Part shown: positions 7,426-54,111 of the stretch, in pieces
How positions within the stretch are numbered: the first letter of the stretch is position 1
How the letters are laid out: every line of letters begins with the position of its first letter
From: Dysgonomonas sp. BGC7
GTDB lineage: Bacteria > Bacteroidota > Bacteroidia > Bacteroidales > Dysgonomonadaceae
Reading direction: 5' to 3'
DNA length: 64,000 nt
Assembly (NCBI RefSeq): GCF_001261735.1
Contig: NZ_CVRP01000007.1
Span: 1-64,000 of the forward strand
Position numbers and translations under genes: made by a program
Notes under the pieces: model-generated
Database searches by the model: none
Seen by the model: the letters and a program-made list of their open reading frames with translations, nothing else
Told to the model about the DNA's origin: nothing

Positions 7426-10287
7426 ATGTCTATAAGATTAATAAAAATATCAAAAGATTTGAATGTAGGTATCAGCAGTTTAGTTGAATACTTGCAAAAA
7501 AAAGGGTTTGATGTAGAGTCAAATCCTAATACTAAAATTGACAGTGGGCAACAAGAAATACTTATCAGAGAATTTGGTAATGCTACAGATCTTCAATCTT
7601 TTTTCAATAACAGAAAAGAAAGAGAGAAAGAAGAAGTCAAAAATGAGGTACAACCTGAAGTCGCAGAGCCAAAGAATGAGGTAAGTGTAGAGGAAATAAA
7701 AACCGAAGTTCCGGAATCAGTTAAGCCTCATGTGCAGATAATCGATAAAATAGATCTTGATGCTATAAACAGACCCAAGAAAGTTGAAGTGAAGCATGAG
7801 GAGCCTCTGCCTGAACCTAAAATAAAAGAACCTGTAATAGAACCTGTCGTAAAAGAAGAACCTCTACCTGAACCGGTAATTCCGATACAAGAGGAAGAAA
7901 AAGTAGAAAAAGAAGAACCTGTGTTGATAAAAGAAAAAGAAGAACCAGAACAAGAAGCTTCGGAGGTTATAACTGAACAAAAAGAAGAACAAAAGGAAAC
8001 TAATAGTGTTTTCCGATTAAATAAAGCTACGCTTAAGTCTAATATAGTAGTTAAAGGTTCTATTGACCTTAGTACAATAAATGACAAAACTCGTCCGGCT
8101 AAAAAAACTAAAGCAGAAAAGAAAAAAGAACGTCTTGAGAAAGAACAGCAAGATCAGAAAAAAGTAAAAGAGAATACTGTTCGTCTGCTGAAGAAAGAAA
8201 CCGACGAGGAAGCTAAGAAGCGTAAAGCCAACGAAGATAACGATGATGCCGGAAAGAAAAAACGAAATCGTATCAAGAAGGGCAAAGTCGATATCGAAAA
8301 AGGTGCTACCCCTCAGCCCGGACAACATTCGGGAGGAGACAGAACACGTCATAATCTACGTAAACCTATTGTTAAGCATGTGGTTAACGAGGAGGATGTT
8401 CAAAAACAAATAAAAGAGACTCTTGCCCGATTAACAGGCAAAGGAAATAAAGGTAAAGGGGCTAAATACCGTAGAGATAAACGTGATGCTGTTTCTCAAA
8501 GACAGCAAGAAGAGCTCGAATTGCAGGAACAGGAAAGCCGTGTTCTTAAGATCACGGAATTTGTAACTGCAAATGATTTGGCCAACATGATGAATGTGCC
8601 TGTAGTTCAGGTTATATCTACATGTATGAGTATCGGTATTATGGTTTCTATAAATCAAAGGCTTGATGCAGAGACCATAAATATAGTAGCAGAAGAATTT
8701 GGCTTTAAAACAGAGTATGTGAGTGCCGAAGTTATTGAAGCCATTAACGAAGAAGAAGATAGTCCTGAAGAATTAGAGCCACGCGCACCTATTGTAACAG
8801 TGATGGGACACGTTGACCATGGTAAAACATCCCTTTTAGACAATATCCGTCAGGAGAATGTTATTGCTGGTGAAGCAGGAGGAATTACCCAACATATTGG
8901 AGCATATAATGTGAAGCTGAAATCGGGACGACGTATTACATTTCTCGATACTCCCGGCCATGAGGCATTTACTGCGATGAGGGCACGTGGAGCTAAAGTT
9001 ACAGATATAGCAATAATTATTGTTGCAGCAGACGATAATGTCATGCCTCAAACTGTGGAAGCTATCAATCATGCTTCTGCGGCAGGTGTGCCTATTGTGT
9101 TTGCGATCAATAAAATAGATAAACCATCTGCGAATCCTGAAAAAATAAAGGAAACTTTAGCAGGTATGAATTATCTGGTTGAAGAATGGGGGGGTAAATA
9201 CCAGTCTCAGGACATTTCGGCAAAACAAGGGCTAGGAGTAGATGAATTACTTGAAAAAGTATTACTCGAAGCTGAACTTCTTGACCTGAAAGCTAATCCT
9301 AATAGGCGAGCTACAGGATCGGTTATAGAATCGTCTCTTGATAAAGGGCGTGGGTATCTATCTACTGTACTGGTAGAAAACGGTACACTCAAAAAAGGAG
9401 ATATAGTACTTGCGGGAACATATTTCGGACGTGTAAAAGCGATGTTTAACGAGCGTAATGCTAGTATAGATGCTGCTCCTCCGGCAAGTCCGGCCTTGGT
9501 TCTAGGACTTAATGGGGCACCTCAGGCAGGAGATATATTCCACGTACTCGAAACAGAACAAGAGGCGCGTGATATTGCAACCAAAAGAGAGCAGTTGCAG
9601 CGTGAACAAGGACTTCGTACTCAGAAGATTCTTACGCTTGATGATATCGGCCGCCGTATAGCTATCGGTAACTTCCAGCAGTTAAATGTTATTGTCAAAG
9701 GAGATGTGGATGGTTCAGTCGAAGCTCTTTCCGACTCTTTAATAAGATTGTCTACAGAAGAAATTCAAGTAAATGTAATCCATAAAGCGGTAGGGCAAAT
9801 TTCCGAATCTGATATTACGTTAGCTGCAGCATCAGATGCTATTATCATAGGATTCCAGGTACGCCCGTCTCAGGCTGCACGTAGAGCGGCAGAAAAAGAT
9901 GGAGTTGAAATTCGCCTATATTCTATTATATACGATGCTATAGATGAAGTGAAATCAGCTATGGAAGGTATGCTGTCTCCTGAAATAAAAGAAGTACAGA
10001 CTGGATATGTTGAAGTACGTGAAGTCTTTAAAATTACTAAAGTCGGCACAGTTGCCGGATGTATGGTCAAAGAAGGTAAGCTTAAGAGAGCTAATAAGAT
10101 AAGGATTATACGAGATGGTATTGTAGTGTATTCCGGAGAACTGGGATCTCTCAAGAGATTTAAGGATGATGTAAAAGAAGTATCTGCCGGATATGAGTGC
10201 GGTTTGAATATACATAACTATAATGATATAAAAGTGGGCGACGTAATTGAGCCTTTCGAAGAAATAGAAATAAAGAAAACATTGTAA
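7426..10287 (+). CDS. infB: Translation initiation factor IF-2
   Basis: A 953-residue GTPase that places initiator fMet-tRNA on the 30S subunit and promotes subunit joining. An IF2_N module covers residues 1-50. A long charged extension (about 60-350) carries Pro-Glu-rich repeats (EPLPEP, EEPVL) and then Lys-rich segments. A second IF2_N-like module lies near 375-425. The G domain starts near 455, with GHVDHGKT at about 463-470, DTPGHEAF and NKIDKP. Domains II, III and the fMet-tRNA-binding domain IV follow to the end. The size is at the long end for the family because of the extension. It is separated from nusA by 121 bases with its own promoter. Confidence 0.96.
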
Positions 10288-10311
10288 TATTCAAAATATT
10301 ATATATCTTTG
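10281..10311 (+). promoter_or_regulatory. Promoter of the structured leader and ompH
   Basis: -33-like ATTG at 10281-10284 overlaps the end of infB. A 19-base spacer follows, then -7 TATCTTTG at 10304-10311. The predicted transcript starts near 10316-10320, exactly where the folded region begins. Confidence 0.65.
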
Positions 10312-10317
10312 TACACA

Positions 10318-10445
10318 ATATAACCTAAAGAAAACCAATTGATAGTTGTTGCCAAGCAATCTTGCCTTGAAATCCGGTGGTACTAACCATACCACCGAAA
10401 CACACAACTATCAACAGGTTTAAAGGTTAACTCGGTTTCTTCGTC
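10318..10445 (+). ncRNA. Structured RNA leader with long stem and two-hairpin junction, family not recognised
   Basis: The segment folds by nested complementarity. Helix 1: 10321-10326 with 10424-10429 (six pairs). Helix 2: AAACC 10332-10336 with GGTTT 10417-10421. Helix 3: TTGATAGTTGT 10339-10349 with 10404-10414 (11 perfect pairs). The junction holds a small hairpin CAAG/CTTG (10353-10364) and a perfect 8-bp hairpin, 10375-10382 with 10390-10397, around a 7-base loop. A promoter directly precedes it and no terminator separates it from ompH, so it is a cis leader or a processed small RNA. It does not match the riboswitch, 6S, SRP or hammerhead patterns I know. The structure is seen in sequence; the role is unknown. 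Confidence 0.6.
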
Positions 10446-10484
10446 TGATTCGATAAGTTGCAATACTACAAAATAGCAATTGTC

Positions 10485-11006
10485 ATGAAGAAAAAAATAG
10501 TTTTATCAGTAATCTTAGTGTTTTCAATATTATTTGTAAATGATATTTATGCTCAGTCTGCGCAGCAAATAGCTTTTGTAAATTCGAATGAACTTTTAGA
10601 TGCTATTCCGGAAAAAGTTACTGCTGCTAATCTGATCAATGATCTGAATAGGAAATATAAAGAAGAGTTGCAGGTAATGCAAAATGATTATAATAAAAAA
10701 TACTCGGACTTTATCTCTTATCAAAACTCTATGGCTGACAATGTACGTCTTCGTCGTATGCAGGAACTCTATGAACTCGAACGTCAGATTAATAGTTTTA
10801 TGAAAGTAGCTCAAGATGACATCCAAAATCAGGAGAAAAACCTTATAGCACCACTACGTCAAAAAGTAAAAGATGCTATTTATCTGGTTGGAGTAGAACA
10901 AGGATATATTTGTATATATGATATGGCAAATCCTACAATTGCTTTTATCACTCCCGATGCTCATGATGCCAATCCGCAAGTAAAGCAGAAATTGGGAGTA
11001 CAATAA
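10485..11006 (+). CDS. OmpH/Skp-family periplasmic chaperone
   Basis: A protein of about 173 residues. The signal peptide covers about 1-24 (MKKKIVLSV... ending YAQS). The mature part begins with AFVNSNELLDAIPE, typical of OmpH, followed by long amphipathic helices (about 45-125) that form the Skp coiled-coil tentacles, and ends with a short beta segment. Skp-type proteins hold unfolded outer-membrane proteins in the periplasm. The start at ATG 10485 is supported by the signal peptide; the frame from TTG 10458 would put residues ahead of it. It is preceded by the structured leader and followed by a terminator. A second OmpH-like gene lies at 53497. Confidence 0.88.
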   Translation: MKKKIVLSVILVFSILFVNDIYAQSAQQIAFVNSNELLDAIPEKVTAANLINDLNRKYKEELQVMQNDYNKKYSDFISYQNSMADNVRLRRMQELYELERQINSFMKVAQDDIQNQEKNLIAPLRQKVKDAIYLVGVEQGYICIYDMANPTIAFITPDAHDANPQVKQKLGVQ

Positions 11007-11024
11007 AGCTGACAGGAAGAATGT

Positions 11025-11057
11025 AAAAAAGATGCTCTTGAAATAAGAGCATTTTTT
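11025..11057 (+). terminator. Intrinsic terminator after ompH
   Basis: ATGCTCTT at 11032-11039 pairs with AAGAGCAT at 11045-11052 around a five-base loop, with an A-run before and a T-run after. It separates ompH from murI. Confidence 0.85.
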
Positions 11058-11068
11058 GTATCTAAATA

Positions 11069-11908
11069 ATGACTAAGATAATGCTAAAACCTGGGCCTAT
11101 AGGTGTTTTTGATTCAGGATACGGAGGATTGACGATCCTTTCTGAAATACAGAAATTATTACCTGAATATGATTATTGCTATCTGGGTGATAATTCCCGT
11201 GCGCCATATGGAACACGTTCTTTCGATATTGTGTATGAATTTACAAAACAAGCAGTATTAGCTCTGTTCGACATGGGGTGTAATCTTGTTATCTTAGCAT
11301 GTAATACTGCATCCGCCAAAGCTCTCAGAACTATACAGCAAAAAGATCTGCCTCTTATAGATCCCGATAAAAGAGTGCTCGGTGTTATCAGACCTACTGC
11401 CGAAATAATAGGAAGTATAACTCGTAGCCGGCATATTGGTGTGCTTGGTACTATGGGAACAATACAGTCAGAATCTTACCCGATAGAGATACATAAATTA
11501 TTTCCAGATATTGAAATTACAAGTGAAGCATGTCCTATGTGGGCACCTTTAGTAGAAAACAGAGAATACGAAAATGAAGGTGCAGATTATTTTATAAAGA
11601 AGAACTTGAATAATGTATTGACTAAAGATCCACAGATAGATACACTTATATTGGGGTGTACACATTATCCGTTGCTGCTGCATAAAATAAAATCTTTCTT
11701 GCCTGTCGGTGTCACAGCTCTTGCGCAAGGAGAATATGTTGCACGTAGTTTGCAGGATTATTTCTATCGACATCCCGAAATGGATAATATGTGTACGAAA
11801 AATTCAACTACACGCTATTTCACAACCGAATCTACCGAAAAATTTTCTGAAGCTGCTACTATCTTTTTGAATAAAAGTATTGAAGTAGAGCGTATAACAT
11901 TCGATTGA
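11069..11908 (+). CDS. murI: Glutamate racemase
   Basis: A 279-residue cytoplasmic enzyme that interconverts L- and D-glutamate for peptidoglycan. FDSGYGGLT at about 14-22 holds the conserved Asp-Ser pair, ACNTASA near residue 80 carries the first catalytic Cys, and LGCTHYPLL near 197 carries the second. The length is normal. The start at ATG 11069 follows the terminator by only 12 bases, so the promoter may lie inside or upstream of the ompH terminator region. ATG 11081 is an alternative start. Confidence 0.95.
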   Translation: MTKIMLKPGPIGVFDSGYGGLTILSEIQKLLPEYDYCYLGDNSRAPYGTRSFDIVYEFTKQAVLALFDMGCNLVILACNTASAKALRTIQQKDLPLIDPDKRVLGVIRPTAEIIGSITRSRHIGVLGTMGTIQSESYPIEIHKLFPDIEITSEACPMWAPLVENREYENEGADYFIKKNLNNVLTKDPQIDTLILGCTHYPLLLHKIKSFLPVGVTALAQGEYVARSLQDYFYRHPEMDNMCTKNSTTRYFTTESTEKFSEAATIFLNKSIEVERITFD

Positions 11909-53496: not shown

Positions 53497-54111
53497 ATGA
53501 AGAATATCTCTTATGTAATTAATGGCGTTCTTGCGGTGGCAATAATTGTCCTTTTTGTTTTGTTTTTTACTTCTAATAAAAAAGATGGAGATGGTTCAGC
53601 TGCTCTAACTTTTTCGGGTGGAGATTCTGCCAGCGTATTGCCTTTGGCTTATGTCAACTTAGACTCATTGTTGTTACATTATAATTTATATAAGGATGCA
53701 AATGATGCTTTGATGAAAAAGTCGAATAGTGCAAATGCAACATTAAATCAAAAACAAAGACAATTTGAGACAGAGGTTGCAGATTTTCAGAAAAAGGTAC
53801 AGAATAATGCTTTTTTAAGCCAAGAGCGTGCGCAACAAGAGTCTGTACGTCTTCAGAAAATGGAAGGAGACCTTCATGCGTTAGCTCAAAAATTACAGGA
53901 AGATTATTTAAAGGAACAAGCCAAGCTTAATTCGCAGATTGCGGATTCTGTACGTTTGTGTTTGAAGGATTATAATAAGACTGCTAATTATCAAATGATA
54001 TTTACTAATACAGGAATGGACAACATTCTGCTAGCTAAAGATTCTTATGATATTACGCAGCAGATATCGAAGCTTTTGAATAGTCGGTATAAACCGGAAG
54101 CTTCAAAATAG
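53497..54111 (+). CDS. OmpH-family protein with N-terminal membrane anchor
   Basis: A 204-residue protein. One hydrophobic segment (about 6-24) acts as signal anchor or uncleaved signal. After a Ser/Gly/Asp linker comes LAYVNLDSLLLHYNLYKDAND, a typical OmpH opening, and then a long coiled coil (about 70-155). It is longer than the chaperone at 10485 and shares its core pattern. A role as periplasmic chaperone is likely; membrane anchoring is inferred from the lack of a clear cleavage site. Confidence 0.82.
   Translation: MKNISYVINGVLAVAIIVLFVLFFTSNKKDGDGSAALTFSGGDSASVLPLAYVNLDSLLLHYNLYKDANDALMKKSNSANATLNQKQRQFETEVADFQKKVQNNAFLSQERAQQESVRLQKMEGDLHALAQKLQEDYLKEQAKLNSQIADSVRLCLKDYNKTANYQMIFTNTGMDNILLAKDSYDITQQISKLLNSRYKPEASK

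Follow-up and report, generated by a model that had tools for sequence, protein, structure and literature searches.

A conserved structured RNA element between infB and ompH in the Dysgonomonadaceae, a candidate leader of ompH mRNA

The 5´ untranslated region (UTR) of E. coli ompA is a stabiliser with a stable stem near its 5´ end, and ribosomal-protein leaders are protein-binding leaders. We are aware of few structured mRNA leaders reported from Bacteroidota, and of no RNA-binding activity of Skp/OmpH. The Bacteroidota motifs named in PMC2864571 include Bacteroid-trp (RF01692), Bacteroidales-1 (RF01693), Bacteroides-1 (RF01694) and 6S-Flavo (RF01685). For Bacteroides thetaiotaomicron, the main text of PMC7366714 gives an average 5´ UTR length of 52 nt and a median of 32 nt, and suggests that long leaders hold regulatory elements. 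It also reports TAnnTTTG as the −7 consensus of sigma-ABfr promoters in Bacteroides and does not mention 'ompH'.

The element analysed here lies between infB and ompH in a window of 64,000 nt from Dysgonomonas sp. BGC7 (contig NZ_CVRP01000007.1, positions 1 to 64,000, forward strand). It exists as two related forms, subtype 1 (the Dysgonomonas type) and subtype 2. The Dysgonomonas literature searched for RNA motifs or riboswitches yielded no paper, and the searches made of the wider literature, by titles and abstract openings, returned nothing on the element. The genes ompH, skp and infB are absent from the main text of the genome-wide ncRNA papers PMC8632094 and PMC6429828.

The locus, its predicted fold and its promoter

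In the window, infB ends at 10287, ompH starts at 10485 and murI follows; infB and murI are what we take these genes to be from our own reading of the translations, with murI also matching PF01177. A DNA search found a single copy of the element in its own genome, and a repeated or mobile element was rejected on this one match. The genome holds three further OmpH-family genes (at 53647-54078 in the window and at G000:C9:112054-113055); the element was found solely before the ompH at 10485. The features of the locus, all on the + strand, are the following:

10282..10311, +: promoter of the Bacteroidota sigma-ABfr type, with TTG at 10282-10284, a 19-nt spacer and TATCTTTG at 10304-10311
10318..10434, +: core structured RNA element, 117 nt, matched by covariance model R1 (134.2 bits, E 1.6e-23; this sequence is itself among the 24 from which R1 was built)
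10321-10326 / 10424-10429, +: outer helix, 6 bp, from the minimum-energy fold
10332-10336 / 10417-10421, +: middle helix, 5 bp, from the fold; it belongs to the shuffle-tested duplexes
10335..10349, +: near-invariant 15-nt CCAATTGATAGTTGT, containing the 5´ strand of the long stem, identical in 24/24 rows of alignment A1
10339-10349 / 10404-10414, +: long stem, 11 bp, from the fold, with 3´ strand ACAACTATCAA
about 10353-10369, +: small hairpin CAAGC..GCCTTG of subtype 1, from fold and alignment
10375-10382 / 10390-10397, +: apical perfect 8-bp hairpin CGGTGGTA/TACCACCG, from the fold and both-side changes
10398..10405, +: conserved AAACACAC on the 3´ side of the hairpin, resembling AACACA in subtypes 1 and 2, with its final bases entering the long stem
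10436..10450, +: segment TTTCTTCGTCTGATT, complementary to the ompH start region (ATGAAGAAA), from the alignment, in part of Dysgonomonas
10485..11006, +: ompH, Skp/OmpH family, 173 aa (PF03938, 77.4 bits)

The preliminary description had drawn 10318-10445 as three helices of 6, 5 and 11 pairs carrying two hairpins, with more pairing than chance would give. Folding reproduced these helices and hairpins as placed, the minimum-energy structure adding two inner pairs to the long stem. The minimum free energy of −37.0 kcal/mol compares with a shuffled mean of −19.88 (sd 3.16); with z −5.42 and none of 200 shuffles as good, a chance fold was ruled out. For the outer helix, a UAACC/GGUUA-like pairing is repeated in many subtype-1 loci and beats shuffles at p≤0.05 in 8 of the 29 tested (L056 and L067 being skipped), with p 0.11 at the window locus. 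The CCTTGA of the small hairpin is common to subtype 1 and most of subtype 2. A candidate pseudoknot between the hairpin loop and GGUUA was seen by eye in Dysgonomonas.

No known family was matched. The Rfam search that had been named as a test returned 0 matches at the gathering score in the window, with three chance-level matches in 10200-10550 (E 4.8 to 8.3). Rfam 15 likewise gave no match above the gathering cut-off in 13 loci of both subtypes. An identity as 6S RNA was rejected, the sole 6S-Flavo match of the genome lying elsewhere (C7:589593-589716) at 23.9 bits against a cut-off of 85.

A promoter directly upstream, as proposed from the sequence, is supported by Bacteroidota-type elements that are conserved in subtype 1. 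The TTG of the window promoter is the last infB codon. TAnnTTTG ends 17-32 nt before CCAATTG in 29/31 subtype-1 loci, and a TTG stands 17-23 nt further upstream in 21 of these 29; the background of TAnnTTTG is 269 of 5114 75-nt stretches of the window (5%). An E. coli-type promoter scan of the + strand of the locus found nothing, and Bacteroidota promoters differ from those of E. coli. In subtype 2, the strict TAnnTTTG is found within 90 nt upstream in only 5/45 loci. The motif starts 2 nt past the infB stop in L105, L154 and L164, so cotranscription with infB is possible there.

Downstream, the terminator scan found none in 10280-10500, in agreement with the earlier claim that no terminator precedes ompH; an intrinsic terminator between element and ompH, the mark of a transcription attenuator, is thus not found in that interval. 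Across 9900-11200, a single terminator was listed, after ompH and on the − strand. It corresponds to a hairpin with a T-run at 11028-11058, between ompH and murI, which is probably a terminator and which the scan lists on the − strand only. By eye, a CCCG/CGGG hairpin is visible just upstream of the element and after infB in L095, L138, L149 and L153, possibly an infB terminator, and in L056, L058 and L071 ompH is closely preceded by a short hairpin of the AAGGTCT.. type.

Distribution of two subtypes within the family

In a DNA search of 61 genomes, the element was recovered from numerous members of the genus and also from two further genera within the family. In all 24 loci of the unfitted alignment A1, it lies between infB and ompH, and the covariance model R1, built from these loci, scores 31/101 Dysgonomonadaceae genomes at E≤2e-4. 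Among weaker R1 matches, those in G031 and G122 also lie between infB and ompH, and that in G008 has neither gene.

The DNA following infB in 40 more genomes revealed subtype 2, a related but distinct element present in 17 of 23 family loci; in 17 other-family loci, neither ompH nor murI follows infB, one of them, L085, being a short contig end. The subtype-2 layout consists of ACCAGTTGACATTGT, ACCTTGA, a longer hairpin, AACACAC and then mostly the partner strand. Model R3, built from 18 subtype-2 sequences that include the intermediates L068 and L069 and otherwise no Dysgonomonas-type (R1/R2) sequence, scores 48/101 family genomes at E≤2e-10. Combined, R1 and R3 cover 79/101 Dysgonomonadaceae genomes and 13/15 genera, the family being taken from record names. 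Of the 23 named subtype-1 loci, R3 also detects 21 at E≤0.1, in the expected position and on the expected strand. Antisense matches of similar size exist on these loci because the hairpins are self-complementary; therefore, the argument from this cross-match lies in the consistent position and not in any single E-value.

The position of the element is uniform. The motif pattern was found in 77 of 88 loci (it missed L146, L161 and L163, all three found by R3). Two of the 77, L088 and L136, end with the contig; the other 75 hold both genes, and in all of them the motif lies between infB and ompH on one strand, the same-strand position upstream of one gene that marks a leader. Strong sense-strand R1/R3 matches number one per genome; the exception is G114, which has two, each on a short contig ending at the locus. 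One further pattern match, in G054, was rejected: it is antisense in a long open frame, presumably glycogen phosphorylase by our own naming, and folds differently.

Across 393 genomes of the order, strong R2 and R3 matches fell only inside the family, in scans that scored few candidates per genome and whose strict filters can miss weak ones. Marginal R2 matches outside the family in two of these genomes (E 0.013 and 0.027) were rejected, their neighbouring open frames being unlike ompH or infB; marginal R3 matches occur in ten (E 0.029-0.091). In the named collection, from which the window's own record may be missing, records called Dysgonomonas hold the closest relatives by OmpH, some of the records being labelled Prevotella. 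As a side observation, the records of L165, L170, L172, L175 and L178 are labelled Prevotella and carry a Dysgonomonas-type locus; they are probably misnamed.

Among 80 named OmpH loci, 23 carry subtype 1 (R2, E≤2e-10) and 39 subtype 2 (R3, E≤2e-11), L220 is truncated where its contig ends, and the remaining 17 match neither model. Thirteen of the unmatched loci come from records named Dysgonomonas, Petrimonas, Fermentimonas, Dysgonomonadaceae or only Bacteroidales, Bacteroidetes or Bacteroidia, and keep the infB-side ompH; the other four are labelled Parabacteroides or Barb4 (12 of the 13 and all four were viewed by eye). In L100 and L092, the infB-ompH gap is only ~40 nt and, by comparison with L105, these loci retain ompH but have none of the element. 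Thus, the element can be lost while ompH persists.

Partial loss is seen as well. Seven loci of the Proteiniphilum-type genus g10 (L106, L142, L144, L145, L147, L148 and L150) lack the 3´ partner strand, with 99-106 nt from motif to ATG versus mostly 133-179 elsewhere, and retain the 5´ strand, the hairpin and AACACA. The long stem is therefore dispensable in these loci and, as judged from their sequences, the 5´ strand is kept there for something other than long-stem pairing.

Covariation and the strand of the RNA

Compensatory changes in relatives, which had been named as a test of the structure, were found in alignment A3 and in the subtype-2 hairpin. A3 comprises 29 of 33 sources, with L015 and L018 left out as near-duplicates and L068 and L069 omitted for scores within or below antisense noise. 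In A3, 99.3% of cells are paired versus 16-61% when the alignment is slid, and four pairs show both-side changes versus 0.7 after shuffling, all four among the eight pairs of the apical hairpin. Since A3 was fitted to R1, these counts lean towards the R1 structure; in the unfitted A1, the signal is weaker, with both-side change in 1/20 pairs. In the subtype-2 alignment A4 (18 of 19 sequences, L106 being omitted as it has no 3´ strand), the hairpin is 94.9% paired versus 26-53% when slid. It has 38 cells with both-side changes versus 12.0 shuffled. By a weaker measure, 9/13 hairpin pairs have both-side changes versus 6.1 shuffled, a value reached by 5/500 shuffles. Conserved secondary structure with covariation, as a structured mRNA leader would have, is thus present, more weakly in A1.

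The claim of a structured RNA is supported, but needs amending for the long stem: none of its 11 pairs shows both-side changes in subtype 1, because the 5´ strand hardly varies. Its pairing is supported there by one-sided changes to G–U, the clear covariation being in the hairpin. In 25/30 subtype-1 and 21/43 subtype-2 loci, no more than 1 in 100 shuffles outdoes the long stem (L024 and L136 were skipped, their loop pattern not being found). Stem cells of A3 are changed in 3/319 cases on the 5´ strand and 11/318 on the 3´ strand. The hairpin is skewed the same way (6/232 versus 16/232), and the skew by itself therefore does not set the stem apart. Among later A3 rows, CCAATTGATAGTTGT is altered in L059, L067 and L071.

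The strand can be read from the same alignments. G–U cells exceed A–C cells by 20:0 in A3 and 13:5 in the A4 hairpin; this bias indicates that the + strand is the RNA. Structure, strand and position are conserved in the loci compared, as is the promoter sequence in subtype 1.

A proposed role in ompH expression

The explanation that we favour, with moderate confidence, is that the element is a structured 5´ leader of ompH mRNA with a regulatory function, and that it represents a new RNA family, restricted in the genomes searched to the Dysgonomonadaceae. Transcription would begin from the housekeeping-type promoter just 3´ of infB, a few nucleotides before the structure, as its promoter sequence suggests. 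The 5´ end of the RNA would then be closed into the long basal stem, which bears the apical hairpin and the flanking CCUUGA and AACACA. The element probably controls ompH. The structure may set ompH output by shielding the mRNA from decay and translation or exposing it to them, and the near-invariant 5´ strand, together with the flanking nucleotides or internal loop, would be bound by a trans-acting factor, most probably a protein. Part of Dysgonomonas may have additional translational control, through pairing of the start codon with another segment immediately downstream of the structure. A bolder version, which we regard as speculative and rather unlikely, is a new class of sensing RNA: the 5´ strand and internal loop would be the receptor for a specific protein or metabolite signalling the state of the envelope, and in part of Dysgonomonas the start-codon helix would act as a switch. 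If true, this would put an outer-membrane chaperone of Bacteroidota under RNA control.

An alternative role would be mainly mechanical: with no regulator involved, the closed 5´ end would protect ompH mRNA against decay, as in the E. coli ompA leader. The stable fold fits, and so does the predicted start of subtype 1, which lies a few nucleotides before the closing helix. However, the identity of 15 nt in every A1 row exceeds what pairing needs and the strand is kept where the stem has been lost, so that we consider this role improbable.

The element could also be a riboswitch, altering ompH expression when its junction or internal loop is occupied by a small metabolite or ion. The stem-junction-hairpin shape, the conserved flanking nucleotides and the leader position are in keeping with it. 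The TTTCTTCGTCTGATT segment, TTTCTTCGTCAGATT-like, is carried by 15 of the 17 subtype-1 loci tested (31 in all). Its pairing with the start beats shuffles at p≤0.08 in 12 of these 15 related loci and at p≤0.05 in 7. This segment may represent lineage-specific start-codon control in part of Dysgonomonas, and it is a point for the riboswitch. Family-wide sequestration of the start codon, assessed as AUG opening energy against shuffled spacers (loci with very long spacers were omitted by a length limit), was not found. The energy is slightly raised in subtype 1 (4.88 versus 4.16 kcal/mol shuffled, 21/31 loci above the shuffled mean) but not in subtype 2 (2.85 versus 3.00 kcal/mol, 19/44 above). 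Pairing of the 5´ strand with the ompH start region was rejected as a conserved alternative, the mean z being −0.73 over 30 loci of subtype 1 and +0.15 over 43 of subtype 2; some Dysgonomonas loci reach p 0.02-0.04. Neither the 5´-strand pairing nor the start-opening tests revealed an expression platform common to the family. With no terminator found in 10280-10500, variable hairpin loop sequences and an element seen solely in front of ompH, neither a metabolic nor a transport gene, a riboswitch is decidedly improbable. A leader peptide was rejected by eye: there is no ATG between promoter and ompH start, and a TTG frame is broken by 1-nt indels among close relatives.

A trans-acting small RNA, made as its own transcript or cut from the ompH leader, could use the invariant 5´ strand as its seed, and would suit the element's own promoter, near-invariant strand and very stable fold. 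Against it, the element adjoins ompH in every locus with both genes, no terminator was found 3´ of it in 10280-10500 and the long stem hides the supposed seed in most copies. Moreover, the 19-nt motif, with at most three mismatches, has one other site in the genome, as does its reversed control. We consider a small RNA very unlikely. A DNA-level element, such as an operator or internal promoter that looks palindromic only by coincidence, would agree with the 5´ strand retained without its partner and with a subtype-2 TTGAC...TACCTTGA that looks promoter-like by eye, but it is extremely unlikely given the RNA signatures of compensatory change and G–U bias (20:0 and 13:5) and the clear promoter already upstream in subtype 1.

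Taken as a regulatory leader of ompH mRNA, a family-wide element before the gene for an Skp/OmpH chaperone would point to RNA-level control of outer-membrane biogenesis, and the near-invariant strand, which persists where its pairing partner has been lost, poses a well-defined problem of a size that can be dissected.

Like the E. coli ompA 5´ UTR, the element would place a stable stem close to the 5´ end of an mRNA for an envelope protein; it differs from that UTR in the 15-nt strand that is identical in 24/24 A1 rows. Ribosomal-protein leaders precede a ribosomal-protein gene, unlike the element, whose downstream gene is ompH; in both cases a single gene, in a single lineage, has a short conserved RNA in its leader, with conserved nucleotides next to a hairpin. 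Bacteroid-trp, Bacteroidales-1, Bacteroides-1 and 6S-Flavo, as named in PMC2864571, are, like the element, structured RNAs of Bacteroidota from comparative genomics; unlike them, it has no Rfam match at the gathering score. Finally, it shares the sigma-ABfr promoter type with the B. thetaiotaomicron 5´ UTRs in the main text of PMC7366714, and its predicted ompH leader of ~165 nt compares with their average of 52 nt and median of 32 nt.
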